DNA of 24,540 nucleotides from Stramenopiles sp. TOSAG23-6 (taxonomy: Eukaryota > Sar), in contig LT636003.1 of the NCBI GenBank assembly GCA_900128565.1, positions 1 to 24,540 of the forward strand, read 5' to 3'. How positions within the stretch are numbered: position 1 is the first letter of the stretch; every line of letters begins with the position of its first letter. Below, one piece after another: positions 1 through 24,490 of the stretch. The notes beneath the pieces are model-generated. The model had not been told where the DNA came from. It ran no database searches and saw nothing but the letters and a program-made list of their open reading frames with translations. The translations under genes and the position numbers were made by a program.

Positions 1-2
1 GA

Positions 3-10600: not shown

Positions 10601-13600
10601 AATGGTTCTTCAAGATGCATCTCTTGAGACGGTAGATTTGCAACAAAATATAAATAGTAATGAATTCCCCGATCAAGAAGTTACAGATGACTTTATAGGT
10701 GACGGCTTGTTTTATTATTATGTTGCAACGGAGAGAATAATCCCGGAAAGATGTTCAATGAATATCGATCGCTGTGGATATGAAGCATGGGGATGGACTT
10801 CTTTAGAAGGCGAAGACAAAGGGACCGTGGCTACACATGCGTGTCTGGTGCAAGTTGATCCGAATAAACGAAGTCTCACAGGAATGTCACAGGAGAAAAG
10901 TCTTCATGAAATATTATCAGGTTGCACAACAATCGTTCCTCGTTTATTCACCAATGCAAATCCCATGCCACATAACGAAAATGAGTTTTCATCTCGTTTT
11001 GTAGCAAAACACCAGCAAAGCCTTGGACCTATCTCTCACCGGTTACTCATGGAACGATTCCATGGATTTGAGCCACTTCGAAGTGTATTGCCTTTACCAA
11101 TACCAGCACATGTCGACACATTGAAACTATGGGGACGGCAAATATTACTAGCGATGCAATCTTTCCACGAAAAAGATGTTGCGATGGGTCGAGGTTCTCT
11201 TAATCCTGACACATTATTAGTTAGTCCAGATGGCCTTCGACTTGTTCTTTCGTCACTCAGTGCTGCCGCAGACGCGACAGCGGTGAGTGATTCAGCAATT
11301 CATGCTCAATCAAATGAAATGAAAAACATAGTAGAAAATGAGGCAATGCCCATACCGGCACAATTTTGTGCTTTAGATGTTGCATTTTTTGGTTGTCTTC
11401 TTGTAGAAATTTTATCGGGGGCATCACCACCGATAGCATTGAAATTATCTGATTCTGCTCTACAGCTAGCTTTTGGAGCGGAGAGTAATGTATCAGATGA
11501 TTCTAGTGAGATATTGGTTGCTCTACGTATGGCTGCACAAGCCGTAGCACCCACTCAAATGTTGCTATCAAAGGGTAGATCAATTGTGTGTGCAACTTCG
11601 TTACCACCAGCGTCTGATTTAACTCCTTTAATTGATCCTAATTCGAAAACTTGGCGTCCTGCAGAGAGATTACCATCAAGTGTTTCTGGAGTATTACACA
11701 TAATTGCATTGTGCCTTCAACAAGACTGGAAAAATAGGCCATCTATTAAAACACTTTTATCTCATCCTTTTTTTAAAGCAAATAAGCAGAATATCAAAGT
11801 GTGTGCGACAACAATAGCACCACATATGCACTTTGCAGCAGGCCGAGCAGCACTGCAATGGGCTCGAAGCTATATAGTCAGTCCAATGCAAGCACTATTG
11901 GAACGTCATCGCTTATATGAAAAAATTGGCAATGTAAGTGGTTGGGTATATTTGGTAGAGAAATTAACTGCAGTGTTGGTGGATGGCAACGCGCACTTGG
12001 TACATGAGTTAATAGTGAATGATAATATTTTGGAGACGACTACTTCAGTTGCTTTACAATATTATGGAAGCAAGTGGTCACAAACTGTCGGCCCTGGTAG
12101 TGGTGCAGGTTTCATTTTGGGAGAGCAAAATTCTTCACTTGGAGAGCGAATCATCAGACGCGCAGCTCATATGTTAAAGCAGTTGTTTAACTCCATGCAG
12201 CAAGACACTACTTGCGTGTCGCCTTTAGCTCCTCATGTTGGCCGAATGCTACATTGTGCAATCCTTCTTTTTACTGGAGATCTCAGGATCGGGACATTTC
12301 ATAGTGGAGAAACTTCTCTTTTATGGGATCCGTTTATCGTTGAATGTGTTCGACCTGTGATGGAAGACATAATAACTTCGGAGGGTAGTGGGAATAATTC
12401 TCTGAAGCCTCTTTGTGACTTGATTACAATGTCATCTATGGATCGGCCTTGGATAAAATCAAAACTTTTACTAAAAGAAAACTTGGGAGGTATAAGTGAG
12501 ACTAGCAACTTAATGTTTCGACAGGATTATTTAGGAAGACTTTTACTACTATCTTCACTTCTTTCACAAGCAACTAGTTTAGATGTCGATTCACGGAGTC
12601 GAACATCTGCTATAACACGTATCACTCAAATGCTAACAGAAAGTTTTACAGCAGTGAGTAATACAAACACGCTTGGTAACAAAAACAAAACAAAAAATGC
12701 TTCTAAAAGAGAAGAATTTCGATGCAAAACTTCATCCGGATTTGCAAATGGTGGTAGTGTTGCTCTCTTGTTTGTACAAACAAAAGTTACTCATAAGTTG
12801 CTACCGCTAATGAATATTCAAGATTCTCAATGTAGACGGCAACTCTTTTTGTTAATGAAATGTGCCACAACTCCTACAATACGTTCATTTTGTACACCAG
12901 AACAATCTCATCCCTGGGATATATTAGCCGATGAGTTTTGTACTCGGTCTTATCTCACATGTATTTATACCCGCTTGGCAAGCAATGAAGCAGAAAGTGT
13001 TCAAAATACTCGTTTATTATGGAAAATACTTGACAACATGGCCACTCGAGGAGGAAGATATACTCGCTTTTGGCAGAATTCTGGAATTTTACAATTATTG
13101 GTACAATCTCTACATCCTCAGCCACGAGAAATGTCTCAGGTGAGTAAGGTTGTGGTACCACTCGCTGAAGGTGTTCTACGAAATATCAAACGAAATGAAT
13201 CTCCGACATTTTTGAAGAATTTTTCATTGTTTTTCACAGAATATCTTCAAAACGAGGATACATGTACAAAAAAAGAGGATAGTAGTGAATCTGAAAAATA
13301 TCTTGTAAGTATACCTGATTGTTGTTCGAGTATAGCCGAAATTGAAAAGTATTTGAAAGATATTCATTTCAATGGGGGAACAATTGAAGAGATTCTTCGA
13401 GTGTCGACTGACCTATCTTTTGTTTTATTGAGCTGGGTAGAAAACCCCAAAATTCATGGAGGTTCTGATGAGATGGTTTTACTTGAGCAAATTTTTTGTA
13501 TTTTTCGTTCAAAGTTTGATCAATACTGGGAAGATATTGAAAATAGTACAAACGAAAATCATATTAATTTATCAACACAACTTATTGATAGTATTCTAAA

Positions 13601-15857
13601 TTTATTATTTCAACTACAGTCTTGGGATAAGCAAGCCAATAAAGAACTTAATCCAAGTAATAGAAATGATAGAAACATGAATAAACGTCGAAACTTGGCT
13701 GATGTAGCATTTGTTGGTGCTGGATTCTCATCTTCTTTGTCAAAAAAAATAAAACATGGATTAGAAAGTTCAATGTGGATGTCACTACTGCCAATTCATG
13801 CAAAAATTACTACTCTAGTCTCAGTTGCATTACGCAATAACTCAGAGGATATGATACAATCTTTTGTACATTCCGATTTAGCTGGGCATTTTACAGGAGC
13901 CCTTCTTGCAATTCACAGACTATTGGACGGTTCTTCAAAAAAAACACATAAATATGATCTCCAAGGTTATCCGATTTTGTCCGCGACAACGACAGCTCTT
14001 GTAGATTTATGGTCAGGAATCCTGCATGCTGGAAATATATCTGTTCCTTCAGGAGAATTATTAGGAAACAGAATCGTTGAGTGTGGTGCTGTTTCTATTA
14101 TTATAGATGATATGCTTCCTGACCTACGGTCATATTTACTTCATTCAGATGAACCAATGTTAAATCCAAAGTTAAGGAATAAAAACAAAGGAAAGAAGAA
14201 AAATCGAAGTGCTTGGAAAAAAGGCGCGCGGAACAAATATAGTCCAGTCGCAATTCAAAGTAAATCTGCTTCAAATCCAAGTACTTCCGTATGTTTTCTT
14301 GATTCTCCATCACCGGCTGCTTTTCCTATTAGAAGCTTTTCGTTACAACTTATTGAAGAGATCGCAACAACAGTAGCAACAGGAGGTCGACGCCCACCAC
14401 TTGCTGTTGCACCTGTAGTAAAATCTCTTGTCGCACATCTGCACCATGGTGATGTAATAATTGTTGAATGCGAGCGTCTCACCCAACTTGCTGCTGAGAA
14501 AAAGGCTCAAGAAAATACAGGAAATCTTGAAGATACTACAAAATCTGATTGTTTGGAAATGTCCGTAGCAAGGTTTTTACAAGCGATTATATCAACCGGT
14601 GATCAAAGTATAGAATCAAAGCTGTTATCAAATGGAATTGATGCACCCATTGAAGCTTTTGATTTGAATATATGTTTTCCTGGTCATTTAACTCTAGTTG
14701 AAAATGCATGGCGCCAATGGATTCGCATTAAAAGGGTCTCATTTGACTTGGTCCCTTTAAAAGATTATAAACACAACCAGTCTCCAAATACATCTATTGA
14801 ATATACAAAATCAAGTTATTCACCAAAAATAGAAAATAATATCAAAAATATTATTGAAAATGACCTTGAAAATAATCTTGAACATAATGTAGAAAAACTG
14901 CAAACACTACATTATCCTGGGATGGATCCATTACCTGAAAATAATAATGACAATAAAACTGATTTCGAAAAAGAGACTGAAGCTCAGAAACGACGACTAA
15001 ATATAACTTCATCTCATACCAATGAAAAAATGGATTCTCCAGAGATTAAAATTGTCAAGGATACTACTTCTGAAAGTAATGATGCCGATATCAAGATAAA
15101 CATCAATGATACAATTGATGAAAACAAATCTAAGAATATAAAGAATGAAGTTTCTCGGATGGAAGATTTTCTATCAGAGTTAGGTGATGATATCATTGGA
15201 GTTAAGGAAGTATTTGATGCCCAAGTAGAGTCTTTTGGCAGCAAAAACCAGCGAATATTATGGTCCTCCGTTCCAGCTGTTTTGAGAAAATTACAAAAAA
15301 TACCAGATGTGGATACAATGAAGAAGGTAAAGAGTGCAAGTTCAGACACCATTAATTTGTATAATGCTAGGGAGAAGAGTACAAAAAAGAAATACAAAAT
15401 TAAAGATAACACAGAGTTATCTATTGACTTTTATCAATTTTTAGAAATTTTAGCAAAAAGTGAAAGTATTGGGGATTATTCAGAAAAAGTTAGAATATCA
15501 GAGTTAAAGGCCGATGAACGGGCAATTCCTAAGAAAACACAGAAATTTAAAAGTGTAACATCCAATAAATTTGAAGGCGGAGTTGGTACAACAGGAGGTG
15601 GGCGATTTGGCCAAGATGAGGATGATGAGATTGAAATGGATGCATATGATATAGACATTATTCAAATTGATCGGAAAAGCCAAAAGAAAAAGCGAAGAAA
15701 ACGCAAGTCAATTGAAGAAGGTAAAAATGCAGATGGATCATCATCTAATTCATCATCTAATTCGGATTCAAGTGACAGTGGAGAAAATTATAAAAATGGA
15801 CGGAAACACAGTTCAAGAAAATTAAAATCTAAAGGTAGAAATACTGATGTAAAATAA
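3..15857 (+). CDS. Giant multidomain scaffold-like protein (Tudor-like/RS, PUB, EF-hand, WD40, AP2, pseudokinase), 5' partial
   Basis: One open frame runs from the left edge to a TAA at 15855-15857, with no intron. The first in-window ATG-like start is really a TTG (42), and the frame is open upstream and already inside a Tudor-like unit (YEDGDSERRVKRNLIRSL), so the true start lies outside the window. Order of parts by nucleotide: Tudor-like units with Arg/Ser tracts (3-1620); a weak EF-hand-like helical region (1650-1950); two PUB-like domains (about 2965-3500); EF-hands (about 4197-4255, 4509-4544, 4617-4652); two more PUB-like domains (about 4800-5400); a coiled coil (about 5690-5800); another EF-hand (6558-6593); beta-propeller-like sequence (about 7000-7760); one more Tudor-like unit (about 7870-7980); EF-hand-like helices (about 8080-8250); a WD40 blade plus AP2 (8598-9019); a degenerate kinase C-lobe (11031-11787); helical repeat-like sequence (11800-14750); and a Lys/Glu/Ser-rich tail. 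PUB domains are known p97/Cdc48 C-terminus binders and Tudor domains bind methylated ligands; a calcium-responsive scaffold is inference. I do not recognise a named orthologue. Confidence 0.93.
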   Translation, partial: YEDGDSERRVKRNLIRSLEEKNVENHVGNGRDDLEQKQLYALDKFYRDKDIHPRIGKAKSVLKKFKGRLEKLYSGLVSKYGSAPSILLDTPRNISKQNHIFHKGDKVEADFEGRGRYFKGKIKMKHSDGTYDVAYDDGERERRVRAALIRSLDERAMYSREKKQRQSRSSSRSSFGKKSKSRSRSRSNSRSRARRRSSSRSRSRSISKGEQSLRNGDLVSANYLEKGKYFNGKIVMVHNNDTYDIRYNDGDFERRVHRRDIKLRSKRRNHSRESRKKNRRRRSLSESRSRSRSSRSNSRSRSRGRKRWRSKTYSSSRSRSRRSRSRSFSRSRSRSHSRRSRSRSHSRRSRSRSRSVNSQKSTKSNTSNSTTSSLRSQSSFKENIEIGMFAQVREYNRRGRWLEAKITRVRYDDTFDVEYTKTRRSERKVDRSRIKIRERSLSNDSRKSKSSDSQELSDSSERLNKFRMFEKVKIYLDRRDRRVVKPNSRNAKKFNGTIVKLNSDGTFDVSIRIQKKTKSTGKIKWKKTIKSHIRKQYIKKDLKSKELRRPLTLKDLKRRLGSDMIRDYQALFEKYSSSKKGREVKMTTTALQKIFILAGVPEKWAFDRAYHWTSSFSEISENDKKKKTKHEIKLVDFIHAIRYLEDPLMKGKLFQRLQRKTNVSMELEPDNWHNEQWALSIGEVTLKAIESAFVLHSIIKKSTLSKRGKEKKLNSNTKELKDSTDSLSKRNDKKYMKKKKEYNNVATASSDSDQDEHLPVKLRLPVRRLLNVLLLVAPNDDRLTSRRIKEYASYTGVSFEKDVLAISECAKAFHYLCLDATLFGVTIGALRNSPRRSNTHPGFVEPHVKNALPPLSTLAAHIFAEHGLRGIAKNPAATVRQLSVGRPQPQVDALMRLLTEFQTLDPEKLGEIPISHVGTILNAMGWDPRPLRSQISIFNTQISAMGSSLFSLPEFVSAFGFLLEKEGGDGFTVASAFAFLRVQQMPRDVTIAANTALTYINNILKQPKNESLYVINSRNAAFVDRIGKFEGGIALMNAIGFRGVTDSEGNPCMQFYTRDMNSSTMRELKAKKDRILTEMAVGDGAESIADVVRVVRETHSADEVREAVETLIEYVNNVLQNPSSSSALSVSSRSPLFQQRIGRLRGGDLLMGACGFYLIPEKKPPVYILRGAGMSQSIEKQMSDTNDKSLEINEEDEKNDTNPIIPVVNKSKDAEFRFPSLKLYMRRFLGLQKVRLQQELNQLRIEARSKSKSKPTKPLLRSTYSFIVESAQKKVFCAASETYDVKPEWGEKKKTDHQTKVQNKFKKIFQHLEKKTSGKQSNDKSKTSMQGKPENRKHVEEKHNNESKEDRTDKQSEKNAGIPLGCVSCDVWKETIEQVCRRHKSTILKNEETNSLSAYLDTNGNGYIVIKQFLNFIFSYNPSNEIAPDIDKKKNINDGIIYNSEIRELGAKDPKYKKSVVFSNNNNKNQDSQGSDDDLQWVATNPVQKQQLEMIRKAFLCIDLNNDGIISQDDLKQSFQQRGIASSPDAIALWIRDRDLSGDGTVTFDEFVASFGGLLMPTLDGGEVKPKETQNISDLKSNDYYEIVSVVQYIFSTVRLTNSLAATARATETVLSWIDRILLAPKVKKYWSTSSSDPTFVRAFAGLNRGILLLRGVGFVPEQNKTVWALSDVPSGEAIESWDDEPPATVMERLRRIRQELRLRLKFINQPDVADMSLSVAVASLGSDADDSSVIQWLSVCEFAHEMLIRILHDKSDKAFRIEMNSPKFKKAIGKSDGGMNLLIALGFREGFEGELIYDLPREIAHARKVEFDAGIGALRKRAKLASARMLERLQKEKTNDVTKQKKVSKKKKSKDIGTPMPTIENSLTKKTKLTEKKNKKVVDIDSKKSLKKDKEILRLRDEVQRLQTQLHRTLLPREIAVLNRLPPRKRSAFIKEATAAGLDIGLDLTDMTDTKSGKPKTGKSAKSKASNASRQGMGKMSFSVEIVSEILDEIIYSVAVAGEDRIWHRAAQHAFEYRQVPRSIFSSFSIFDTRLEHTSGTTKDFPSTVTALPGSGKIIITHSKHLHRQSVDSSSVLVLDEGVHAIVQVRRHFNSLQDLNNAQRHQNDNKICGVVGRQLSCAILKDPQLMPHPAVSILQQKLIQNTSKKFTWNEIAKLMFPSNEDIQDEKRTTFSFFRGVFESYDIDKDGRLNLEEVCSLCRELDGREPSAEALKSLKFLPEQRGKYNENITNLRDQSSDTVDFLSLFQWRISNTNATSGDNIAYLLESHLYDIFKSCDTKVVTEHEVVNRSTFLHTAREDKNLLRIFSMVPKAEDILTVLAKDRDLHMKWLQVRHSINLALGTGNNIFLRQPLTLQVECSANESCTCVRETVVSDFNCEIICLMTDGTVQMWDGFSNRKKRSFRVLGGVFSRTKLARQESIAEVNTELQSLPHIKVLSCERATGVIAINSVFFNGVIRFFDTQTGEMLSGIRPRVPGTEEGSLGIVQNVQPILFKHNVALCSVEKSSILFVVSADDGTLLAELQGHGGINFTPVFCYVPDVGHVVSGGTGGGDFSLRIWNLSGELFWRISSRKRRRLRESGIDWNERKLLQDAMEIIVNEFVDTRNTNSPMEKDESINASRIGTIISENETCGSGVCIKYDDGEVDTGVWYDRLLNPSTHENIDTPILGDKVLVIPNQPRQQFMGRLLSEIDTLGTGGATRTGLRDLLINRLGLPLTDEHITELFDCLETQTSEGHINYSDMLHLAQSYYGGAYLRCRGRVGDSEIFGHLKKRVVAAMKPRGVTPSLLWKTFQSNDIDNITVLSIKIFCRLLHTETELKLSDAEQECILARYGRYKDSVVCYGEFCDSLDNFAKPLLLPFKRAVTGHTAAITAIAFLPVAGLIASASYDGSVRLWDPITRQQRLTLPPHVIQTIPHSESIPQSRFIGVSWDQKSNSWRATLKTRRGDHRGETKKRWWKELKSGNVRPQNHIGVYKSEIEAARAYDDAARHHHGQYALTNFNEDGALPVVEWTSLQAYDECMRIVEPSKGKVCTDLAVFAVSTAKTTTGIVTSAKIKRIAHAIDMDNDDTSVRGYLYLYEDGRLLVTEVPPKHRFDSTYITSPPIANTSVQLQDKANVAIRRVFYITIPSSSLKSISTVQDLRNMLLEANVVHRSLEEIKQVLVSPKVHIVAFFKENDGPSQTIPAIELDSLSNVCKQDAPVGALEFLTGIFMINNTKGIQRCTSWAVGRTTLKSAACEVDIPQTKEIIDSSKASFQHYWQAQLGLARAQLLFRRKLKSQQSIEKWKLYQEIASQFHAVSAAEGQASDSNYRSIFQRALRAPTHSNVEATAIDAAKYLFNAVSLGCTIVRKGDILRALKTQQGSICEAIAVGDKLFSNIIPSSLSIQDFCQIAQKSLFKLLSASEILSLLRQHRNVFVTAQNGGANVASVVDTSVHALGQTGTLFDEDAFCLLLRDTSPLKVLSDNVQEVDICTKTWGEVKEITKFNGDKEPLSPLENYARSILSNTLSSKLSLIADAFGAPIRTTCDQVVQMVLQDASLETVDLQQNINSNEFPDQEVTDDFIGDGLFYYYVATERIIPERCSMNIDRCGYEAWGWTSLEGEDKGTVATHACLVQVDPNKRSLTGMSQEKSLHEILSGCTTIVPRLFTNANPMPHNENEFSSRFVAKHQQSLGPISHRLLMERFHGFEPLRSVLPLPIPAHVDTLKLWGRQILLAMQSFHEKDVAMGRGSLNPDTLLVSPDGLRLVLSSLSAAADATAVSDSAIHAQSNEMKNIVENEAMPIPAQFCALDVAFFGCLLVEILSGASPPIALKLSDSALQLAFGAESNVSDDSSEILVALRMAAQAVAPTQMLLSKGRSIVCATSLPPASDLTPLIDPNSKTWRPAERLPSSVSGVLHIIALCLQQDWKNRPSIKTLLSHPFFKANKQNIKVCATTIAPHMHFAAGRAALQWARSYIVSPMQALLERHRLYEKIGNVSGWVYLVEKLTAVLVDGNAHLVHELIVNDNILETTTSVALQYYGSKWSQTVGPGSGAGFILGEQNSSLGERIIRRAAHMLKQLFNSMQQDTTCVSPLAPHVGRMLHCAILLFTGDLRIGTFHSGETSLLWDPFIVECVRPVMEDIITSEGSGNNSLKPLCDLITMSSMDRPWIKSKLLLKENLGGISETSNLMFRQDYLGRLLLLSSLLSQATSLDVDSRSRTSAITRITQMLTESFTAVSNTNTLGNKNKTKNASKREEFRCKTSSGFANGGSVALLFVQTKVTHKLLPLMNIQDSQCRRQLFLLMKCATTPTIRSFCTPEQSHPWDILADEFCTRSYLTCIYTRLASNEAESVQNTRLLWKILDNMATRGGRYTRFWQNSGILQLLVQSLHPQPREMSQVSKVVVPLAEGVLRNIKRNESPTFLKNFSLFFTEYLQNEDTCTKKEDSSESEKYLVSIPDCCSSIAEIEKYLKDIHFNGGTIEEILRVSTDLSFVLLSWVENPKIHGGSDEMVLLEQIFCIFRSKFDQYWEDIENSTNENHINLSTQLIDSILNLLFQLQSWDKQANKELNPSNRNDRNMNKRRNLADVAFVGAGFSSSLSKKIKHGLESSMWMSLLPIHAKITTLVSVALRNNSEDMIQSFVHSDLAGHFTGALLAIHRLLDGSSKKTHKYDLQGYPILSATTTALVDLWSGILHAGNISVPSGELLGNRIVECGAVSIIIDDMLPDLRSYLLHSDEPMLNPKLRNKNKGKKKNRSAWKKGARNKYSPVAIQSKSASNPSTSVCFLDSPSPAAFPIRSFSLQLIEEIATTVATGGRRPPLAVAPVVKSLVAHLHHGDVIIVECERLTQLAAEKKAQENTGNLEDTTKSDCLEMSVARFLQAIISTGDQSIESKLLSNGIDAPIEAFDLNICFPGHLTLVENAWRQWIRIKRVSFDLVPLKDYKHNQSPNTSIEYTKSSYSPKIENNIKNIIENDLENNLEHNVEKLQTLHYPGMDPLPENNNDNKTDFEKETEAQKRRLNITSSHTNEKMDSPEIKIVKDTTSESNDADIKININDTIDENKSKNIKNEVSRMEDFLSELGDDIIGVKEVFDAQVESFGSKNQRILWSSVPAVLRKLQKIPDVDTMKKVKSASSDTINLYNAREKSTKKKYKIKDNTELSIDFYQFLEILAKSESIGDYSEKVRISELKADERAIPKKTQKFKSVTSNKFEGGVGTTGGGRFGQDEDDEIEMDAYDIDIIQIDRKSQKKKRRKRKSIEEGKNADGSSSNSSSNSDSSDSGENYKNGRKHSSRKLKSKGRNTDVK
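2965..5400 (+). other. Four PUB-like domains with interposed EF-hands (within the giant CDS)
   Basis: Four blocks share the PUB fold pattern: an N-terminal helix of the A-x-x-T-[L/V]-x-x-[Y/W]-[I/V] type, a short loop, F-x-x-x-I-G-[K/R]-x-x-G-G, then L-[L/M]-x-[A/G]-x-G-F. They lie at about 2965-3140, 3310-3500, 4800-4990 and 5210-5400. The clearest are the first (ends GGIALMNAIGF) and the fourth (ends GGMNLLIALGF). Between copies two and three sit an EF-hand-like loop (DTNGNGYIVIKQF, about 4200) and an EF-hand pair. The second loop of the pair, DLSGDGTVTFDE, has all canonical calcium ligands; the first has Asp instead of Glu at position 12. PUB domains in PNGase and RNF31 bind the p97 tail. 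Four in one chain is unusual. Confidence 0.7.
8598..9019 (+). other. WD40 blade followed by an AP2/ERF-like DNA-binding domain (within the giant CDS)
   Basis: A textbook WD40 blade (GHTAAITAIAFLP ... SASYDGSVRLWDP, 8605-8700) is followed about 70 nt later by an AP2-type domain (8775-9019). The AP2 landmarks are FIGVSWDQKSNSWRATL at the first strands, then HIGVYKSEIEAARAYDDAAR in the amphipathic helix and a closing ALTNF. A basic insert (RRGDHRGETKKRWWKELK) lengthens the hairpin. AP2 domains bind DNA in plant ERFs, apicomplexan ApiAP2 proteins and many HNH/integrase mobile proteins. Here there is no nuclease partner, and the domain sits in the middle of a propeller-like region. Confidence 0.8.
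11031..11787 (+). other. Degenerate protein-kinase C-lobe (pseudokinase-like, within the giant CDS)
   Basis: The segment keeps the C-lobe skeleton: a helix E-like stretch (LKLWGRQILLAMQSFHEKDV), then GSLNPDTLLVSPDGLRLVLSSL where the catalytic loop and DFG region should be, an F-helix-like stretch (ALDVAFFGCLLVEILSG), and a closing WKNRPSIKTLLSHPFFK typical of the last kinase helix. The HRD aspartate is missing (MGRGSLNPD at the expected place) and there is no DFG. No clear glycine loop or VAIK lysine is visible upstream. The layout recalls BEACH-linked or SCY1-like pseudokinases with helical repeats behind. Catalysis is unlikely; a folding or docking role is inference. Confidence 0.6.
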
Positions 15858-16189: not shown

Positions 16190-16276
16190 CGCGTTGAAGA
16201 TAGAATCGAACTATTACCCAGTTAAGGATCCACAGCTTTGAAGGCTGCGCCAAGAACCATCTTGGATCATCATCGC
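16190..16276 (-). tRNA. tRNA-Sec (anticodon UCA)
   Basis: Read on the minus strand, 87 nt fold into the eukaryotic selenocysteine tRNA shape. The acceptor strands are GCGATGATG (16276-16268) and CTTCAACGC (16199-16191), nine positions with one A-A mismatch and a T-T mismatch at position 8 that is also present in vertebrate tRNA-Sec; the discriminator base is G (16190). The D arm has a 6-bp stem, CCAAGA/TCTTGG, with a four-base loop (16265-16250). The anticodon arm has a 6-bp stem and loop CTTCAAA with anticodon TCA (16241-16239). A variable arm (ATCC/GGGT, one wobble) and a 4-bp T stem ATAG/CTAT with loop TTCGATT complete it. The 9+4 acceptor/T layout, long D stem, UCA anticodon and long variable arm together exclude ordinary tRNAs. 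It implies a selenoprotein-making organism. Confidence 0.93.
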
Positions 16277-16529: not shown

Positions 16530-18016
16530 ATGCGTGTTATCTGGAATGCTCTACCAATTTTAGCAGTCCTTGCAATTACCAATGGAGAGGAAGATGTTAC
16601 CAATAGCCAAGAAGATGGTACTCTTCAACTCGAAGTAAAAGATATTGGTACTCTCACAGTTCCTGCTAATGTTGAGCCAGCTAATGCAGTTGAAAACTTT
16701 GCAGCTCAGGTAAGTTGTATTTTTCTTTAATATTTCCAACTTTTATTATATTTTATGTTTCGTTATCTTATATGTAGTAAACCCACAACGTATAACTCTA
16801 TATTACAGGCAACGGAATCAGGAATAGGTATGAACCTTGAAGCAATGGAGCAAATGCTGGACTATTTCTGCAGTAAACGCAGTTGCACCCGTAAGTTAGC
16901 TGGGCGACTTGAACTTACAATTGATGGTGTCGGCCGAGTTGTATGCGAAGCATGGGAGGAACCAGCAACAGTGGTTGAGAAATTTTCTGGAAAAGCATCA
17001 GCAGCTGGTCATGGCATCACAGAGCAAGCAATGAATCAAATGATGGACTTTTTCTGCCAACGAAAGTCATGTAATCGAAAGGTGACAGGTCCTTTAAAAC
17101 TAACAGTCAAAGGTTTGGGCAGTGTTGAATGTCAACCTTGGCAAGATCCTGCAGACGCAGTGGAGCAATTTGCTGGTGCTGCAGTTGCGGCTGGTTTACC
17201 AATATCTCAGGAAGGTATGGAAGATATGTTGCTTTGGTTTTGTCAGCGAAGAAAATGTTCACGTCGTCTGTCTGGGCCATTGTCACTAGAAGTGAAAGAT
17301 GTCGGAATTGTAAAGGTACAAGCTTGGGAAGATCCAATGACAGTTATTGAAGAATTTGCAACCAGAGCCGTAGAAGCAGGTCATGGTATAAACGATGAAA
17401 CTCTGCATAAAATGAAAGACTTTTTTTGTACACGAAAGCAGTGCATGCGGGAAGTTAATCCAAGGTTGGAGTTGAATGTTAAAGACGTTGGTAAACTTAT
17501 TGTTGCTCCTTGGCAACAACCAGCAGCGATGATAGAAGACTTCGCCGCACAAGCCGTTGCTGCTGGACATCCTATGTCGGAAGAAGCGATGTCACAAATG
17601 TATGAATATTTTTGTACTAAACGTCACTGCAACCGGGAATTATCAAAAAAGATGAGCTTGGAATTAAAAGATGTTGGCACGTACGTTTTTAAAATTGTTT
17701 TTTTTTTCGTAAGAAATTCCGTACCTAATGATTTTTTTTTAAATTNTTTTTTTTTTTTTTTTTTTTTTGAAGTAAATTTTGTACCTAATTAAAAATATCA
17801 AATGTAAAATATTTTTTCTTATACATTCTTGTGGTACTTCCATGGCAAGATCCTGCAGACTCCATCGAAGATTTTACATCTCAGGCCACCAATGCAGGAC
17901 ACAAGGTAGGTCCAACAGAAATGAGGAAAATGATGGAATATTTTTGTGCAAGGAGAAGTTGCCAACGATTGAGTCTCAATGCTCCACAAGCAGCAGCATT
18001 ACATAAAGAATTATGA
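16530..18016 (+). CDS. Secreted six-repeat CX4C protein (three exons)
   Basis: Exons 16530-16709, 16809-17680 and 17827-18016 join in frame to a 413-residue protein. Start: ATG at 16530 opens a signal peptide (residues 1 to about 19, core LPILAVLAI). The mature part is six repeats of about 61 residues, each [W/N]-x-x-P-x-x-x-[I/V]-E-x-F ... AGH ... M-x-x-[M]-x-x-[F/Y]-F-C-x4-C-x-R ... L-x-[L/V]-K-D-V-G. The CX4C cores are FCSKRSC, FCQRKSC, FCQRRKC, FCTRKQC, FCTKRHC and FCARRSC. Two units carry an extra Cys before the Trp. Exon 1-2 is joined by a normal GT-AG intron; exon 2-3 by a non-canonical one, and only that junction restores the fifth repeat's six-residue G-to-W spacing. I recognise no family; an extracellular or secretory-pathway location is inferred from the signal peptide. 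An AATAAA lies at 18121-18126. Confidence 0.85.
16710..16808 (+). other. Canonical GT-AG intron of the CX4C repeat gene (99 nt)
   Basis: The donor CAG|GTAAGT and acceptor TTACAG|GC are standard. The junction falls between codons (phase 0) and joins NFAAQ to ATESG, matching the FAAQAVAAG pattern of other repeats. It shows none of the blocks shared by the neighbouring non-canonical introns, so it is a useful in-gene control. Confidence 0.85.
17681..17826 (+). mobile_element. Non-canonical introner-like intron, copy C (146 nt)
   Basis: It begins GTACGTTTTT after GGCAC and ends TTATACAT before TCTTGTGG. The repeat periodicity of the protein fixes both ends: G-T-L-V-V-L-P-W results, with the six-residue spacing seen in all other repeats. 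There is no AG at the 3' end. It holds CGTACCTAATGATTTT, then a T-rich stretch of about 40 nt with one N, then a second TTTTGTACCTAATTAA block, so its middle appears duplicated or expanded. The 3' element AAATATTTTTT precedes the last nine bases. Unlike copies A and B, the boundary cannot slide, so GT...AT is unambiguous if the frame argument holds. Confidence 0.75.
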
Positions 18017-18155: not shown

Positions 18156-20432
18156 TTACGACCAGACAGTCTTTTTCGAAAGCAAGCGCCACTTCTTTCG
18201 CTGATCTCTTATTAAGAACTCTACAGATTTTAGTAGTATTTTTGCATCTAGGAAGCAAACATCAGATCCATAAACAACGGCTTGAACAGCTAACATTAAC
18301 TTGTCAACTTCACGACCTGAAAATTTGTCCATTTGCTTTGCCACTTTTTCAATAACTTTATCTGTTATATCATCTGAAACTTCAATTTTGGCATCTCCAT
18401 TCAAACCAATTTTTGCCCACATACGATTGATAAATGTATCTCTTTTCTTGTGTTGTAGTATATACTTATCAAAATACAGTTTTGTAAGTTTTATTCTTCC
18501 TTGCAGATCAGGAAGAGTATATTCTAAGGCTTCGTCTAAACGATCAGCTACAGCCATATCGAGATCACCTGGCCTATTTGTCGCAAGGACCATCATAAAA
18601 TCTTTTTGTGGTGTACCCGTGTGATATAAAATAGCAGACACTGCATTACGAAGAGTTTCTGAAAGAACATTATTACGAGATCCAAGGAAAGCTTCAGCTT
18701 CATCAATAAATAAAAGTAAGCCTCTTTTGGAACTTCGTGCCCAATCCATTACCTTATGCAATTCAGTGACCGCTTGCTCACCCAATGGAGCTACATCTCC
18801 ACCAGACATAATTGCATAATCAAGACCAGCTCTATGCGCTAGCTGACGAGCGGTCATTGTTTTTCCTGTTCCAGGTGGACCATGGATTATGAAAAATATT
18901 TCAAACATTAAAATCGTTAGGTACAAAATTTCGTACGAAAAAAAGTAATTCGAAATTGAAATGAAAACGTACATAAAAGAGGAAGTGTCGCATTGGTGCA
19001 CCATGCCTTCGCGCATTACCGATTGATAATGCCATACGTCGGAGACGAATATCTAATTCATTGGGTAAAATAATACCTTTAAAAGCATCGGGCTCTTTAA
19101 TACCTCGAAATCGTCGATACATTTTCATTATTGATTGTTTTGTACGGTTAAATAAAGAAAAATGATGATTATCTTTAGAGCTTTCACGTAACAAATCTGG
19201 TCGCTTCAATCGTCTTGCTACTTCTGCTGCCATCACCTTTGCAAATTCTTTACTTACAAACAGCATTAGACCTGAAACTCCAAGGAATAGACCTGTCGTA
19301 ATTAGCTGTTGTGGAGAGGATAAGAAATGTGCTATACCTTCTCCAAGTAAACGAAATCCAGTCTTGATTGCAGCAATAAGTTTCTGACGATCATGAATAG
19401 CCTGCTTTGCCTGCATGTATCGTGAAAAATATTTGTAGTAAAAAAAATCGTTAGGTACAAAATTTTCATAGTAAAAAATAAAATGAAATGAATGATGAGA
19501 ACGTACATTCGTTTGGCAATATCTTCGTTTTCTCTTTCTTGACGAATTTTTGATTCGCCTTCTATCTGCGCTGCTTCTACAGTTGCTTCTGCCTGTAACT
19601 GTGCACGTCGCATCGCCGCCTCCGCTTTCATCTCTTCCAAGTCTCGTTCATTTTGCATTCGATATGTCTCTTGAACACGAGACGCTTCAGATTGAAGAGA
19701 AACGAGCTCTTCATTACGTTCGCGAGCCATTGAATTTTCTACCTTATTTCGCTCACGAGATAACCGATCATCATATTCAACATTAGCTGCCTCCTGTTTG
19801 GCTTTGAATTCAAGACTTTTCCGATCCTGATCACCCTTGGTGCGTTCTTTTTCAACCCAAAGTTCGGCTAACCGTACCTCTGCTTCCTTTAATTTTCGTT
19901 TATTCACTAATTCCAACTCTGCTTCTTTCAATAATCGAAGTTGTACAAGTCCTAACTCATCTTGGAGACTTCCTAATTCAGATGTGATATTATGATTGAA
20001 TCCAGTGAAGTATTCAAATTCACTAATTAGCTGTTGTGTCGCAGCGATGTTAGTCCAAAACAAATTTGTTGGATTAATCATATGAAAGTTTTCTACTTCC
20101 ATTTTCTTTTCTTCATCTTTCAAATGAACATTTATTGAAGGCATCACTGTCACTGCATCTGGTAAAACAGCTAATAATTCCTGTGCAAACACTCCAACAT
20201 GTCTTCTATTTTTAAATCGAGCACTCTCAAATTGTGAAGAGACATATTCAAACTCTTTTAGGCTCAACCTTTTTAAGAGTCGCATAGAGTCAAGTGTATC
20301 TACCGGCATGACATTTTTCTTAACGCGCTTATCGGAGGCAATAGCGTGGAAAGCGTATACATCTATTGGACAAAGAAGAAATATATATACGAAAATGCAT
20401 ATCAAAATGCAGGTTCTAACCAATATGCTCAT
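18156..20432 (-). CDS. ATAD3: ATAD3-type AAA+ ATPase with N-terminal signal peptide and S74/ICA domain (three exons)
   Basis: Exons 20432-19507, 19414-18973 and 18881-18156 join in frame to 697 residues. The start ATG has an in-frame TGA two codons upstream. Residues 1-27 are a strong signal peptide (CILICIFVYIFLLC core, likely cut after VYA). Residues 33 to about 135 resemble the peptidase S74/ICA domain: SDKRVKK with Ser33 and Lys38 at the catalytic dyad spacing, then RRHVGVFAQELLAVLPDAV. Residues about 150-305 are a charged coiled coil of the ATAD3 N-terminal type, followed by a membrane segment at about 346-364. The AAA+ domain has Walker A GPPGTGKT (457-464), GGDVAPLG, Walker B LLLFIDEAEAF (Asp/Glu 516-517), ATNR and ADRLDEA. 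ATAD3 normally acts at the mitochondrial inner membrane in nucleoid and cristae organisation; a signal peptide does not fit that location. The introns are the non-canonical copies A and B. Confidence 0.9.
18882..18972 (-). mobile_element. Non-canonical introner-like intron, copy A (91 nt, ATAD3 gene)
   Basis: On the minus strand it starts GTACGTTTTCATTT after CTCTTTTAT and ends CATAATCCAT before GGTCCACC. The junction falls inside the Walker A region: only this splice gives F-Y-G-P-P-G-T-G-K-T. No AG occurs near the 3' end, so GT-AG splicing cannot do it. Shared blocks are TTTTGTACCTAACGATTT, with the CTAAC a good branch-point candidate about 35 nt from the end, and AAATATTTTTC 9 nt before the end. 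ATG occurs at both boundaries, so the exact cut can slide by up to three bases. Confidence 0.82.
19415..19506 (-). mobile_element. Non-canonical introner-like intron, copy B (92 nt, ATAD3 gene)
   Basis: On the minus strand it starts GTACGTTCTCATC after AAACGAAT and ends CACGATACAT before GCAGGCAAAG, giving E-D-I-A-K-R-M-Q-A-K, as expected across the ATAD3 coiled coil. It shares a 22-nt identical core with copy A around TTTTGTACCTAACGATTT, and AAATATTTTTC 9 nt from its end. A GT-AG alternative exists here only (donor GTTCTC, acceptor GCAG) that also keeps frame, replacing M-Q by M-Y; the similarity to copies A and C favours the GT...CAT reading. Confidence 0.78.
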
Positions 20433-20740
20433 GTCTCAAATGGATTAATTCTAGACTGGTAGATGAATGTAAGTAGCTTCGAATAAGTACATACTTTTCA
20501 TGGACAAAAGTAGTGTCCGTTGCTTGAAACCGTCGACCGTTATCTTAGTATGAAAAATTCGTACCAAACTGGCAAACGCAAATTTGCTATTGTCATACTT
20601 GTTTAACAGTTGAGAGCTTCGTGTGATAAGCTCGCTAGTCTTGAACAAATTTCAATTATAATTGTGCTTAAATGTATGTATCATATGTGTCATATGTGAT
20701 ACGGATTACTGGTTAAAGTGTAGTATACTTTTTGTTCCTC
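20433..20740. promoter_or_regulatory. Divergent intergenic region between ATAD3 and LRR genes
   Basis: The two start codons are 308 bp apart and point away from each other, so this must hold both promoters. The only visible structure is a repeat/palindrome at 20678-20702: two tandem TCATATGTG units framed by GTATCA and TGATAC. It lies about 40 bp upstream of the LRR start codon. No gene is supported here. Confidence 0.45.
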
Positions 20741-23700
20741 ATGCCTAGTGTAGACGAAAAAGAAGTTCCCACTTTCGGAGAGAAAATTTCTTCTTCTGAA
20801 GAAATTACATCAAGTGAGGAGAAATATAGTACTGAGACAAGTAGTCATTCAAAAACACATCGTTCTGAAAACTCGGATCCCGAAGAATGGTCAGATCACT
20901 CCAGTGTAGCGACATACTTTGATCTCATTGATAGATTACTTTCAAATGATGCTTCACTCGTAGACATCGATTTGGGTCAGGCAAAGCTGGGTGATAAGGG
21001 GGCAACAACAATTTCAGAAGTTTTAAAGACAAATACCAAAATCCAATCGTTAGACTTGACGTTCAATAATATAGAAAGTAAAGGTGCAGCAGCAATTTCA
21101 GAAGCATTTGGCTGGATAGAAGGTTGTGATAGATACCATAGGGAAAACGGTGGAGATATACCTTCAATTGAAGAGGAAGAAGTTACAGATGAAGATGAGG
21201 ACAAAGATAAAGAAGATGAAGAACAACTAGAAGAATCCGAGAAAAAACACGATGAAGATGTGGACAAAGATAAAGATCCCATTACAAAAATAGAATATAG
21301 AATTGAAGGGAATAATAATAATACCATAGCTAAAGTAGAGGGTGATGATGAAAAAGAATGCGTTCCAGATTTTGTACCTCATCCTATGAAAGCTTGCTCA
21401 TCTTCACTGCTAGCTATTGACTTGTCTGAAAATCCTATAGGTCCACACACTTCCGCTGAATTTTTAAGAGCTGCTGTGGTTTCTTTAGAAGAGATTAGAG
21501 CAGTAGGTATTGGAGCTGGCTGGTTAGGTGCTTTTGGCGTGGCTCATGGTTTAGAAGAAGTCGAGACTTGCCCATTACGTTGCTTAGATCTTTCACATAA
21601 TAATATAGAAGACAAAGGAGCCGTGCGACTTGCACAGGCATTAAAACACACGGTTAAAAGAGAGTCTGCGTTTGATAATACAGGCCCGGTCGCTAAGCTT
21701 CGCGCACTATTCTTGAATAATAATGGTATCGGACCGACAGGAGTATCCGCATTGTGCGATGCACTTCGTTTTCATAAACATATTGAAGTATTGCAACTAA
21801 GGTTTAATCGAATAAGAGTAGATGGCGCTGCAAAGGTTTCCTCATTTATACGGTATAACAAAACAATTACTCATCTGGACTTACGTTCATGTGCCCTAGG
21901 TGATAAAGGCTCGAAAAGATTAGGAAGTGCTCTAGAGTCGTCACAAGGTATTAGATCCCTATGGCTTGCAGGAAACCAAATAGGTGAAAAGGGAGGGAAA
22001 TATATATTTCTAGGACTACAACACAACAAGACGATTACTGAATTGGACTTACATAGTAATTTCATCAACGATGAAGCTACAAAAGCATTATGTGGCACAC
22101 TCGAAGAAAATGTGACTCTTCAAATGTTAAATTTGCGTGACAACAAAGTAAATTGCGCAGGTGCATCCAATATTGCAAAAGGATTGTCAAAAAATGGAAC
22201 GTTACAATATTTGGATTTATCACGTAATACAGTTGCAAATGTTGGGGCTTGTGACCTTGCATTCGCATTGAGTGCTTCAATGTCTATGAGGAAGCTTGAT
22301 ATAAGCGACAATGCAATAGGTGCCAAAGGTGGATCTGCGTTAGAGGCTTGTAGATCATCAAGTTTAGAAAAACGGATGGAGCAGCACAACCAGCTCCAGA
22401 GAGAGCGTCTCGAAGAAATAAAAAGAATCAAAGAGAAGCAAGCAAAACGTAAAAAAAAGCATCTCCAAAAAATAGCAAAACAAAAGGCACAACGAAGAGC
22501 TAAAGTATTTGCTGATGCTGTTTCAAATGGAAAAATCAAGATGTATTCATTTAGCGATGATGACTTGAGTGACGTTTCGAATTCAGTTGATGAAAGCAAG
22601 ATCTTAAACGGACAAGATAGCAATGAAACCAGAATTATCCGCATTGACTACTTGAATGAAGCGAAGACTGAAGATGATGAAATGATAAGCTCTGAGAGCG
22701 ATACACAAGTTCAGGAAGAAGAAATACGGTTGCATATACTATCAAATGCAGTGGAACCTCCACCAATTTTAGAAATTGAGATGGGCAATGAACGTTTACT
22801 CACTGGCAACCCAGGATTTCTTCATGTATCACCAAAAGAACCCGATATATACACAGAATTAGAAATTCAATGTATGCACCAATATACTAGACGAAAGAGG
22901 CCAACAGTAACACCGCGCATGAAACATCGAGCTCAAACTACAATAATTAGGAAGCACAAAAAGCATAAATATCGGCAAAGATCAAAAACAACACATCAGA
23001 GACAGACTGTGAAAGATCGTCTCAAAACGGTTGACTTTAAGTGGGATGATAATATACCATCAAGGCCATCCACTAATCACACAAGGCTGTATACAAGTCA
23101 ATCAAGACCTTATACGAGCATTACAAGACCACATACACATCACTCTAGGGCATATACAGATGTTTTAAGACCTCACACAAGTATTTCAAGAGCACACACA
23201 AACTATTCAATATACACGAGACCCTATACGAGTAATACGAGGCCTTATACTAGCCGAACTGACATAAGTGCGGTGAGTTTTACTGACTCACTCACTGATT
23301 ATTTCCAACGAGATACACATACCAAGGAGCGAGACACACGAAAGTTGCGTAGTCTATCGAGGTATTCGTCATTATATGGAGATACCACAAGAGCATCGAC
23401 AACTTCAACAAAGAGTACCTGGATGAAATCCAGTGTTAAAAGACGCGAAAATCTTTTGGATATGTCCCCTCGGCCATACAGTAGACAACGTGGTATCATT
23501 GGTACTCCACTGTATTCTAAAAATCAGCATGGTCGACCTACATCCGAGAAAGGTGTTTTACATGTATATAATCGACCCAAGACAATACGCCGACATACAA
23601 AGAGTACAAGTACACATCTCTGGATGGAAACTACAAACGCCTCTACAAAACATAGTTTATATGAGGCAAAAGAACAGGCAGAGGCCGATAGACTTGCTTT

Positions 23701-23851
23701 GATAGAAGAAAAAAAGGCAGAGAGAGAAGCAAAGAAGAAAAAACGGGAAGAGGAAATGAAAGCATTACTAGAACGTGGATCTAGAAGTACTACTACATCA
23801 TCCGTAACAATATCTTCCCGTTCAAGCACAAGAGGAGTATCTAATGAGTAA
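20741..23851 (+). CDS. LRR (ribonuclease-inhibitor type) protein with coiled coil and R-P-Y-T heptad tail
   Basis: Single-exon gene of 1,036 residues. The ATG at 20741 is chosen over an in-frame TTG nine bases earlier; an in-frame TAA lies at 20714. An acidic Ser/Glu-rich N-terminus leads into about ten RI-type LRRs (pattern L-x-x-L-x-L-x-x-N-x-I-x-x-x-G-A), interrupted after the second by an Asp/Glu/Lys-rich insert (about 21160-21360). The LRR block ends near 22350 (LDISDNAIGAKGGSAL). A strongly basic coiled coil follows (22370-22510), then an acidic linker, a basic region, nine heptads (23063-23260), and a C-terminal Lys/Glu helix (23660-23770). RI-type LRRs are protein-protein interaction folds, as in RanGAP, NLRC3-like and axonemal regulatory proteins. 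A cytoskeletal or flagellar role would fit the architecture but is only inference. Confidence 0.9.
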   Translation: MPSVDEKEVPTFGEKISSSEEITSSEEKYSTETSSHSKTHRSENSDPEEWSDHSSVATYFDLIDRLLSNDASLVDIDLGQAKLGDKGATTISEVLKTNTKIQSLDLTFNNIESKGAAAISEAFGWIEGCDRYHRENGGDIPSIEEEEVTDEDEDKDKEDEEQLEESEKKHDEDVDKDKDPITKIEYRIEGNNNNTIAKVEGDDEKECVPDFVPHPMKACSSSLLAIDLSENPIGPHTSAEFLRAAVVSLEEIRAVGIGAGWLGAFGVAHGLEEVETCPLRCLDLSHNNIEDKGAVRLAQALKHTVKRESAFDNTGPVAKLRALFLNNNGIGPTGVSALCDALRFHKHIEVLQLRFNRIRVDGAAKVSSFIRYNKTITHLDLRSCALGDKGSKRLGSALESSQGIRSLWLAGNQIGEKGGKYIFLGLQHNKTITELDLHSNFINDEATKALCGTLEENVTLQMLNLRDNKVNCAGASNIAKGLSKNGTLQYLDLSRNTVANVGACDLAFALSASMSMRKLDISDNAIGAKGGSALEACRSSSLEKRMEQHNQLQRERLEEIKRIKEKQAKRKKKHLQKIAKQKAQRRAKVFADAVSNGKIKMYSFSDDDLSDVSNSVDESKILNGQDSNETRIIRIDYLNEAKTEDDEMISSESDTQVQEEEIRLHILSNAVEPPPILEIEMGNERLLTGNPGFLHVSPKEPDIYTELEIQCMHQYTRRKRPTVTPRMKHRAQTTIIRKHKKHKYRQRSKTTHQRQTVKDRLKTVDFKWDDNIPSRPSTNHTRLYTSQSRPYTSITRPHTHHSRAYTDVLRPHTSISRAHTNYSIYTRPYTSNTRPYTSRTDISAVSFTDSLTDYFQRDTHTKERDTRKLRSLSRYSSLYGDTTRASTTSTKSTWMKSSVKRRENLLDMSPRPYSRQRGIIGTPLYSKNQHGRPTSEKGVLHVYNRPKTIRRHTKSTSTHLWMETTNASTKHSLYEAKEQAEADRLALIEEKKAEREAKKKKREEEMKALLERGSRSTTTSSVTISSRSSTRGVSNE
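23063..23260 (+). repeat. Nine heptad repeats R-[P/A/L]-[Y/H/S]-T-x-x-[S/T] in the LRR protein
   Basis: The 66 codons divide into nine heptapeptides, such as RPSTNHT, RPYTSIT, RPHTHHS, RAYTDVL, RPHTSIS and RPYTSRT, with a single three-residue IYT insertion after the seventh. Thr at position 4 is invariant and Arg at position 1 is invariant. Codons differ between units, so the repeat is maintained at protein level and is not a fresh DNA expansion. The regular Thr/Ser next to Arg could be a phosphorylation or microtubule-binding array; that is inference. Confidence 0.8.
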
Positions 23852-23950: not shown

Positions 23951-24490
23951 CTATTTCCGCCGCTTAGTCTTGGATTTTCGAATAAAAGATTTGGCCTTTA
24001 AAGACGGCATTTTACCGTTAAAGAAACCAGAAAATAAAGAAATTTCCCCAGTCTTTTTCTTCTTTTTCTTCTTCTTTTTCTTCTCATTCTTCAAACCAGA
24101 AACGAATGCCGCATTGAGGTTCATCGCCGGCCACTTTTGCACCTTGCACAATTTTCTTTTTTTTTTGCCATTACTTTCAATACTTTTTACCACATGATTT
24201 TGTTCCTTCTCATGATGTAGGACACTTACACTTTCTGCTGGTGAAGATATTTTGAGTTTGTTTCGTTTTTTTCCATTTCCTTTAGTTAGTTTTGCTGCAT
24301 TTCCAATAGGTGCTGCAAAATCCTCTTCCAAGTTTACTTCCATTTCATTATCACTTTGTTTTTGTGCTGCAAAATCCTCTTCCAAGTTCACTTCCATTTC
24401 ATTATCACTTTGTTTTTCTGCAATGTTTGATGAATTTTTAGTATTATCCTCTTCACATGTTTCATTCATACATCCATTAGATAAATTTTG
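23951..24490 (-). CDS. Lys-rich probably nuclear protein, 3' exon (partial)
   Basis: Minus-strand frame ending at the stop at 23953-23951. The first in-window Met is at 24469, but the frame stays open upstream (L-S-N-G-C before the Met) into an apparent introner-like intron, so this is probably a downstream exon and the gene begins beyond the window. The protein has a duplicated acidic 18-residue unit (KQSDNEMEVNLEEDFAAQ), several basic clusters (NGKKRNKLK, NGKKKRKL), a run of eleven or more Lys, and a basic C-terminus (KSFIRKSKTKRRK) that looks like a nuclear or nucleolar localisation signal. No family is recognised. Confidence 0.6.
   Translation of the reverse strand, partial: QNLSNGCMNETCEEDNTKNSSNIAEKQSDNEMEVNLEEDFAAQKQSDNEMEVNLEEDFAAPIGNAAKLTKGNGKKRNKLKISSPAESVSVLHHEKEQNHVVKSIESNGKKKRKLCKVQKWPAMNLNAAFVSGLKNEKKKKKKKKKKTGEISLFSGFFNGKMPSLKAKSFIRKSKTKRRK
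24312..24419 (-). repeat. 54-bp tandem duplication in coding sequence (two copies)
   Basis: Positions 24312-24365 and 24366-24419 are almost identical (one internal change, TTTACTT versus TTCACTT, and differences at the very end). They encode the same acidic 18-residue unit twice. The near identity at DNA level, third-position change included, points to a recent duplication that kept frame. Confidence 0.85.

Follow-up and report, generated by a model that had tools for sequence, protein, structure and literature searches.

Positions 1 to 24,540 of contig LT636003.1 from Stramenopiles sp. TOSAG23-6 (GenBank assembly GCA_900128565.1; here the window, i.e., the whole 24,540-nucleotide [nt] stretch analyzed) carry two introners (i.e., highly similar introns at unrelated positions) in the ATAD3 gene and a third one in the adjoining gene. 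These belong to a high-copy family that, judging from reading frames, orientation, and protein comparisons, is almost certainly removed from its host genes and lacks AG ends. The host is apparently a MAST-3 stramenopile.

We propose that the introners are copies of one short nonautonomous DNA element (~85 to 115 nt) inserted into exons of this organism. The element would bring its own donor (GTAYGT) and branch site (TACCTAAC), and an AG would be needed neither inside it nor at its target. A U2-type spliceosome would excise the element plus one copy of a 2-nt repeat (NN) from the pre-mRNA, and the 3' cut would fall after the second NN copy, placed by distance or by an upstream TTTTTYCAMAATAC motif rather than by AG. 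The last dinucleotide would be donated by the insertion site, and no insertion would alter the encoded protein. Because the donor and branch motif resemble ordinary U2-type signals, the spliceosome is the most economical candidate, and we consider it likely that it removes the introners, in one register or the other. A broader claim, which in our judgment could go either way, is that the MAST-3 spliceosome recognizes 3' sites from their position or from a motif upstream of them and that one transposon family made most of the introns of the genome thereby.

Size and anatomy of the introner family

The assembly is partial (8,027,113 bases, or 8.03 Mb, in 408 contigs, with the window as contig C53). 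A 19-nt core (≤2 mismatches) matched 1,698 sites (901 + 797) in the whole assembly, while the reversed pattern matched 5 (3 + 2); duplicate contigs make such copy numbers approximate and inflate the genome-wide count. In the window, an 18-nt core (≤3 mismatches) had 4 matches, whereas 100 shuffles averaged 0.08 and never exceeded 1. Three of the four matches lie inside introners and one (at 13862) inside coding sequence. These two comparisons exclude chance. The exact core ACGAAATTTTGTACCTAAC was absent from the viral contigs searched.

A first set of loci contained 144 core matches (118 after duplicate removal). Duplicated or inverted near-identical stretches occur in C13/C14, C39/C81, and C2 (loci L011/L012) and are probably amplification chimeras or co-assembly redundancy; the duplicate contigs are 99.99 to 100% identical. 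The introner sample was taken from 187 kb of loci (L009 to L028, three duplicate loci dropped) plus the window. A first profile gave 105 near-full matches, 71 of them nonredundant with enough flank and 67 with clear ends. A second and better profile gave 144 matches, 108 of them with both ends, and 82 nonredundant copies were kept after the removal of duplicates, the three duplicate loci, and copies close to stretch ends. The 82 copies, spread over many different open reading frames (ORFs), are used below unless the smaller set is named. Most of the sampled stretches were selected because they contain introners, which biases the ratio of introners to canonical introns. Many contig starts fall inside an introner (e.g., C18:39, C37:39, C43:38, C45:40, C63:39, C75:38, and C86:37); contigs apparently tend to break at the introner repeat, and introners close to contig ends may be overcounted.

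The consensus anatomy is exon-NN/GTAYGTTTT...TACCTAAC...TTTTTYCAMAATAC-NN/exon (slashes mark the predicted cuts), with a removed segment of 97.5 nt (median; range, 86 to 118 nt). The donor hexamer is GTATGT in 40 copies and GTACGT in 24, rarer ones making up the remainder, and positions +1/+2 are GT in 80 copies and GC in 2. TACCTAAC (≤1 mismatch) is found in 77 copies, its A lying a median of 39 nt (32 to 55 nt) upstream of the 3' end, and the element terminates in, e.g., AAAATAC or ACAATAC before NN. The GT donor and the branch-site motif are those expected of U2-type introns. U12-type introns have a branch site 10 to 20 nt upstream of the 3' end and an ATATCC or GTATCC donor; neither the distance of the branch motif nor the prevailing donors agree with that type.

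The original prediction, made from the two ATAD3 copies (A and B; Table 1), had described an introner-like family sharing a 5' GTACGTT, a core, and AAATATTTTTC nine bases upstream of the 3' end, with CTAAC as a plausible branch point. These shared features hold on remeasurement (TTTTGTACCTAACGATTT is identical in A and B), the genome-wide core sites supply the further copies, and CTAAC holds up as a plausible branch site.

Three-prime end and target-site duplication

In 58 of the 82 copies, NN equals the two exon bases that precede the donor. Matches other than AT number 9, compared with 1.0 in shuffles (none of 20,000 shuffles reached 9), while a 3-nt direct repeat matched in 1 of the 67 copies of the first set (0.5 expected). 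This excess of non-AT matches marks NN as a 2-bp target-site duplication (TSD), with AT as the preferred target. Signs of transposition thus consist of a 2-nt TSD and a terminal inverted repeat of just ~4 nt. Since the non-AG end is a copy of the target site, the terminal dinucleotide varies with the place of insertion: the terminal pairs are GT-AT (59 copies), GT-AG (2), GC-AG (1), and others (20). The AG that closes U2-type introns is therefore present at 3 of 82 ends, and genome-wide the two bases after the exact TTTTTCCAAAATAC are AT at 538 sites and AG at 12.

The original prediction had given the introners GT...CAT ends. Its GT donor and non-AG acceptor hold for nearly all copies. A fixed CAT acceptor is ruled out, given that the terminal dinucleotide, AT in 59 copies, tracks the insertion site; it is instead the second repeat copy.

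Removal inferred from reading frame and orientation

A codon model trained on the long ORFs of the window assigned the right frame to 156 of the 158 test pieces, all of them training data. With this model, the flanking coding frames were continuous after excision of GT...NN for 60 of the 67 copies in the first set and for 70 of the 82 in the larger one (66 of the 74 confident ones), whereas one-third is expected by chance (binomial P, ~3e-22). If retained, 56 of the 61 confidently coding copies would interrupt the ORF. The coding-sense orientation was found in 76 of 82 copies (68 sense and 2 antisense by a clear margin), insertion phases 0, 1, and 2 were represented fairly evenly, by 26, 19, and 25 copies, and a single stop-to-stop ORF of 491 amino acids (aa) spans eight introners. 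Between TACCTAAC and the 3' end, 52 of 77 copies contain no AG.

A segmentation model applied to 18 sources (17 loci and the window, with the 3 duplicate loci excluded) placed 24 gaps at sense introners, none at antisense introners, and 6 where there is no introner, of which one (in L017) looks canonical. After excision, 66 of 83 introners lay within same-strand coding segments; few of 21 other gaps had good GT-AG ends, by a weak method that missed the ends of the canonical intron in the window. A coding-score hunt for canonical introns returned noise, and another version, with thresholds that were too strict, found none.

Protein evidence at five junctions

The predicted junctions of copies A and B (CTTTTAT^GGTCCACC and AACGAAT^GCAGGCAA, respectively) give protein sequence that agrees with relatives. 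At copy A, the spliced product reads FLFY + GPPGTGKT, and YGPPGTGK is found in all 119 listed ATAD3 relatives (P0002 to P0120). An HSP70 gene on contig C83 has three introners (98, 108, and 92 nt), and its spliced product aligns with human HSPA1A (7kw7) without gaps at all three joints. Of 119 listed HSP70 relatives, 62, 108, and 109 match the residue patterns chosen for the first, second, and third joint, respectively. Close relatives carry the predicted residues, namely, KRMQAEQ and FLFYGPPG in P0002 (ATAD3; 73% identical), ALSSSTQ, VHEVVL, and IPPMLRGVP in P0135 (HSP70; 75% identical), and RSLSSTTQ, IHEVVL, and IPPMLRGVP in P0136 (HSP70; 76% identical). In an MRP-type transporter, one of two joints is visible in the alignment, where it is gapless against ABC transporter C family member 2.

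EukProt holds models of both genes from the same organism (GSMAST32.ASY1.ANO1.1475.1 for ATAD3, P0001, and GSMAST32.ASY1.ANO1.212.1 for HSP70, P0131); from its name, we take GSMAST32 to be a Genoscope single-cell MAST-3 assembly. By eye, these models are identical to our translations over long stretches and differ where they skip or change pieces. They are damaged at five of five junctions (FLFYVRKTMT and KRMYAKQ in ATAD3; RSLSLFLEV, VHVLVL, and IPPIGVP in HSP70).

Register of the cut and alternative explanations

Several observations weigh against spliceosomal removal of GT...NN as proposed. Frame continuity is missing in 12 of 82 copies, 6 at each of the other offsets, and the first HSP70 joint is not strictly conserved, lying in a less fixed stretch (the pattern that fits 62 relatives). 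No polymorphic or empty introner site occurs among the duplicate contigs compared. No introner was found in L047, an unselected 10-kb stretch that is mostly one ORF of >2,000 codons, or in L013, a selected stretch. Searches of the partial assembly, made without a usable control, detected none of U1, U2, U6, and U2AF1. Finally, where the repeats match (58 of 82 copies), the sequence cannot place the cut within the repeat, and the summed codon log-likelihoods of 19 mismatching coding copies (GT...NN, -301.0; one-base shift, -305.7; NN-GT...AC, -298.9) slightly favor another register.

In that register, shifted by two, the intron would be NN-GT...AC (mainly AT...AC) and the exon would keep the second repeat copy. 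AT/AC introns can be processed by U2-type spliceosomes under certain conditions, according to the available text on Fritillaria borealis (PMC13326754). The shift would misplace GTAYGT for U1 pairing, and GT is nearly invariant at +1/+2. In a SET-domain gene (L021:2403), GT...NN gives ADMLNH, which aligns with ADMCNH of SETD3, whereas other registers give NQ in place of NH. On account of this copy and of the nearly invariant GTAYGT, GT...NN is the better reading, albeit unproven; we consider the shifted register unlikely, and our estimate for spliceosomal removal includes it.

Removal without a spliceosome appears more doubtful still; in this model, which has been put forward for the introners of Amoebophrya and the nonconventional introns of euglenids, the two ends of the intron pair to guide the process. 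The ends do form an inverted repeat (GTAT...ATAC), whose positions 1 to 4 pair in 79, 74, 67, and 48 of 82 copies and which reaches 6 bp in the consensus fold where NN is AT. The pairing is otherwise only ~4 bp long, 31 of 82 copies have a C at +4 facing an A, a mismatch compensated in one copy at most, and the donor and branch motifs would go unexplained. With folding z-scores of -0.69, -0.90, and -0.92 (near shuffles), removal guided by RNA structure is disfavored. The published models seem to assume canonical GT-AG splicing at nearby AGs, and by our reading of the DNA AG acceptors slightly downstream would yield what P0001 and P0131 show at the five joints. Such splicing is very improbable as the actual process: it costs the models the Walker A motif of ATAD3 and conserved HSP70 residues that relatives retain, and the first AG at or past the 3' end preserves the frame in 23 of 70 copies (i.e., the chance level).

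Excision at the DNA level before transcription, in the manner of the internal eliminated sequences (IESs) of ciliates, would also restore the site precisely with one copy of the 2-nt repeat. Ciliate IESs have TA borders and no orientation bias; here the repeat is not fixed as TA, the coding-sense bias (76 of 82) would be unneeded, and donor and branch motifs are present. We know of no IES-like DNA excision in stramenopiles and regard this explanation, too, as very unlikely. That the introners are unremoved transposon insertions in dying genes is scarcely credible. Retained copies would indeed disrupt most of the ORFs that hold them (56 of 61), but up to 8 insertions lie within one continuous ORF, the HSP70 protein is intact despite 3 insertions, and the frame is kept in 70 of 82 copies. 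Spliceosomal removal remains our preferred explanation.

One protein of the splicing machinery may be represented: locus L039 (G000:C376:20406-21554, minus strand) encodes a U2AF2-like protein in which an RS region and two RRM1-like domains are combined with a UHM at the C terminus. It matches TIGR01642 below the curated cutoff and U2AF65 structures at an E value of ~1e-16, and eight relatives were found, most of them environmental, with 27 to 42% identity over the searched region. That this protein is linked to the introners is only a thought.

Comparison with known systems

In the accessible text on Amoebophrya A25/A120 (Farhat et al. 2021; PMC7789003), noncanonical introns without clear terminal dinucleotides at either end are described, with introner elements bearing 8- to 20-nt inverted repeats and 3- to 5-nt direct repeats; U1 was undetected, and the host is a dinoflagellate. 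Like these, the MAST-3 introners are repeated noncanonical introns that interrupt coding genes, are bordered by direct repeats, and have spread in a transposon-like way. They differ in a near-fixed GTAYGT donor, a CTAAC motif, a terminal repeat of ~4 nt, and a 2-nt direct repeat, in forming a single high-copy family (the only one searched for), and in an apparently stramenopile host. The MAST-3 introners lack 8- to 20-nt inverted and 3- to 5-nt direct repeats, and because of this and of the host, which apparently belongs to another supergroup, they are likely an independent and more orderly case, as the original prediction had suggested they might be.

As far as the available text goes, the introners of Gozashti et al. 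2022 (PMC9860276) likewise form DNA-transposon-like families with TSDs and splice sites partly recruited from them, and those of Chrysochromulina combine their own 5' site with a co-opted 3' site. Unlike in that set, where the TSDs named are of 3 to 9 bp, the recruited 3' dinucleotide is mostly AT here; a survey of that type would overlook this family wherever gene models are forced to AG. Fritillaria borealis (PMC13326754, the part available) similarly has noncanonical 3' ends on a genome scale, handled there by a U2-type spliceosome, with a duplicated, divergent U2AF proposed to recognize them. That host is an animal, its 5' ends are also noncanonical, and that part does not describe its introns as a single family of high-copy elements whose donor is intact. 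The nonconventional introns of euglenids (PMC4770533, in part) share noncanonical borders with the MAST-3 introners, but an RNA structure joining the ends and variable borders do not fit: folding here is no better than that of shuffles, and the 5' border is not variable.

MAST-3A and MAST-3F assemblies were described by Seeleuthner et al. 2018 (PMC5778133), in whose accessible text the word "intron" occurs twice; it does not occur in that of PMC8163842. No description of the MAST-3 introner family was found in the accessible main texts, titles, and abstracts on MAST-3 and introners. Introners, and noncanonical introner elements in Amoebophrya, were known; this family is set apart by a donor and a branch motif that are fixed, by its 2-nt duplication, by the absence of long inverted repeats, and by its host.

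The family would show a transposon making introns without an AG in the element or the target, and it may offer perhaps a thousand natural tests of 3' splice-site choice without AG. Such introns can corrupt the gene models of stramenopiles that are uncultured, as the loss of the ATAD3 Walker A motif from a published model illustrates, and functional conclusions drawn from them (e.g., gene loss and low gene counts) may need rechecking. Candidates for a recheck with the right intron model are claims of gene loss or pseudogenes in MAST-3, e.g., the dynein heavy chains of MAST-3A in the accessible text of PMC5778133. If 3' sites are chosen without AG, AG-based surveys would miss such introns, and similar cases may be common in plankton.

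Genes and other features of the window

The features around the three introners are listed in Table 1. Copy C contains two tandem cores with branch-like motifs and one N, and each of its halves was matched by nhmmer; candidate readings are a composite or nested introner and an assembly problem. The canonical intron in the same gene provides an internal contrast.

Table 1. Introners and host genes in the window
Feature	Position	Strand	Remarks
ATAD3 gene	18156-20432	-	697 aa spliced; Peptidase_S74, ATAD3_N, AAA
ATAD3 exon 1	19507..20432	-	Peptidase_S74 domain, coiled coil
ATAD3 exon 2	18973..19414	-	
ATAD3 exon 3	18156..18881	-	AAA domain from Walker A onward
Introner A, ATAD3, between FLFY and GPPGTGKT	18882..18972	-	91 nt; GTACGTT...TAATCCAT; repeat AT
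Introner B, ATAD3, inside KR-M-QAKQ	19415..19506	-	92 nt; GTACGTT...GATACAT; repeat AT
Introner C, repeat-protein gene	17681..17826	+	146 nt, two cores, one N; left NN = AC, right NN = AT
Core of copy A	18911..18928	-	CTAAC as putative branch site
Core of copy B	19445..19462	-	CTAAC as putative branch site
First core of copy C (CTAAT)	17717..17734	+	
Gene adjoining ATAD3, with canonical intron and introner C	16530..18016	+	413-aa spliced product
Canonical intron GTAAGT...TTACAG	16710..16808	+	same gene as introner C

The Peptidase_S74 (endosialidase chaperone) domain is N-terminal on ATAD3, and the same fusion is precomputed in relatives (e.g., P0001 to P0004 and P0006). An uninterrupted, introner-free ORF of ~5,284 codons occupies 1-15857(+), where it runs off the start of the contig, and has Agenet/Tudor-like, EF-hand, PUB, and WD40 domains; an intronless gene at 20717-23851(+) encodes a leucine-rich-repeat protein of ~1,040 aa. 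A tRNA-Sec gene with anticodon TCA lies at 16190-16276(-) (Rfam, 64.3 bits), from which we predict that this protist probably makes selenoproteins. Elsewhere in the assembly, a 5' piece of the 18S rRNA gene is located at L009:1-564(-). Near the end of the window, positions 24310-24417 hold a tandem pair of 54-nt units that are 98% identical.
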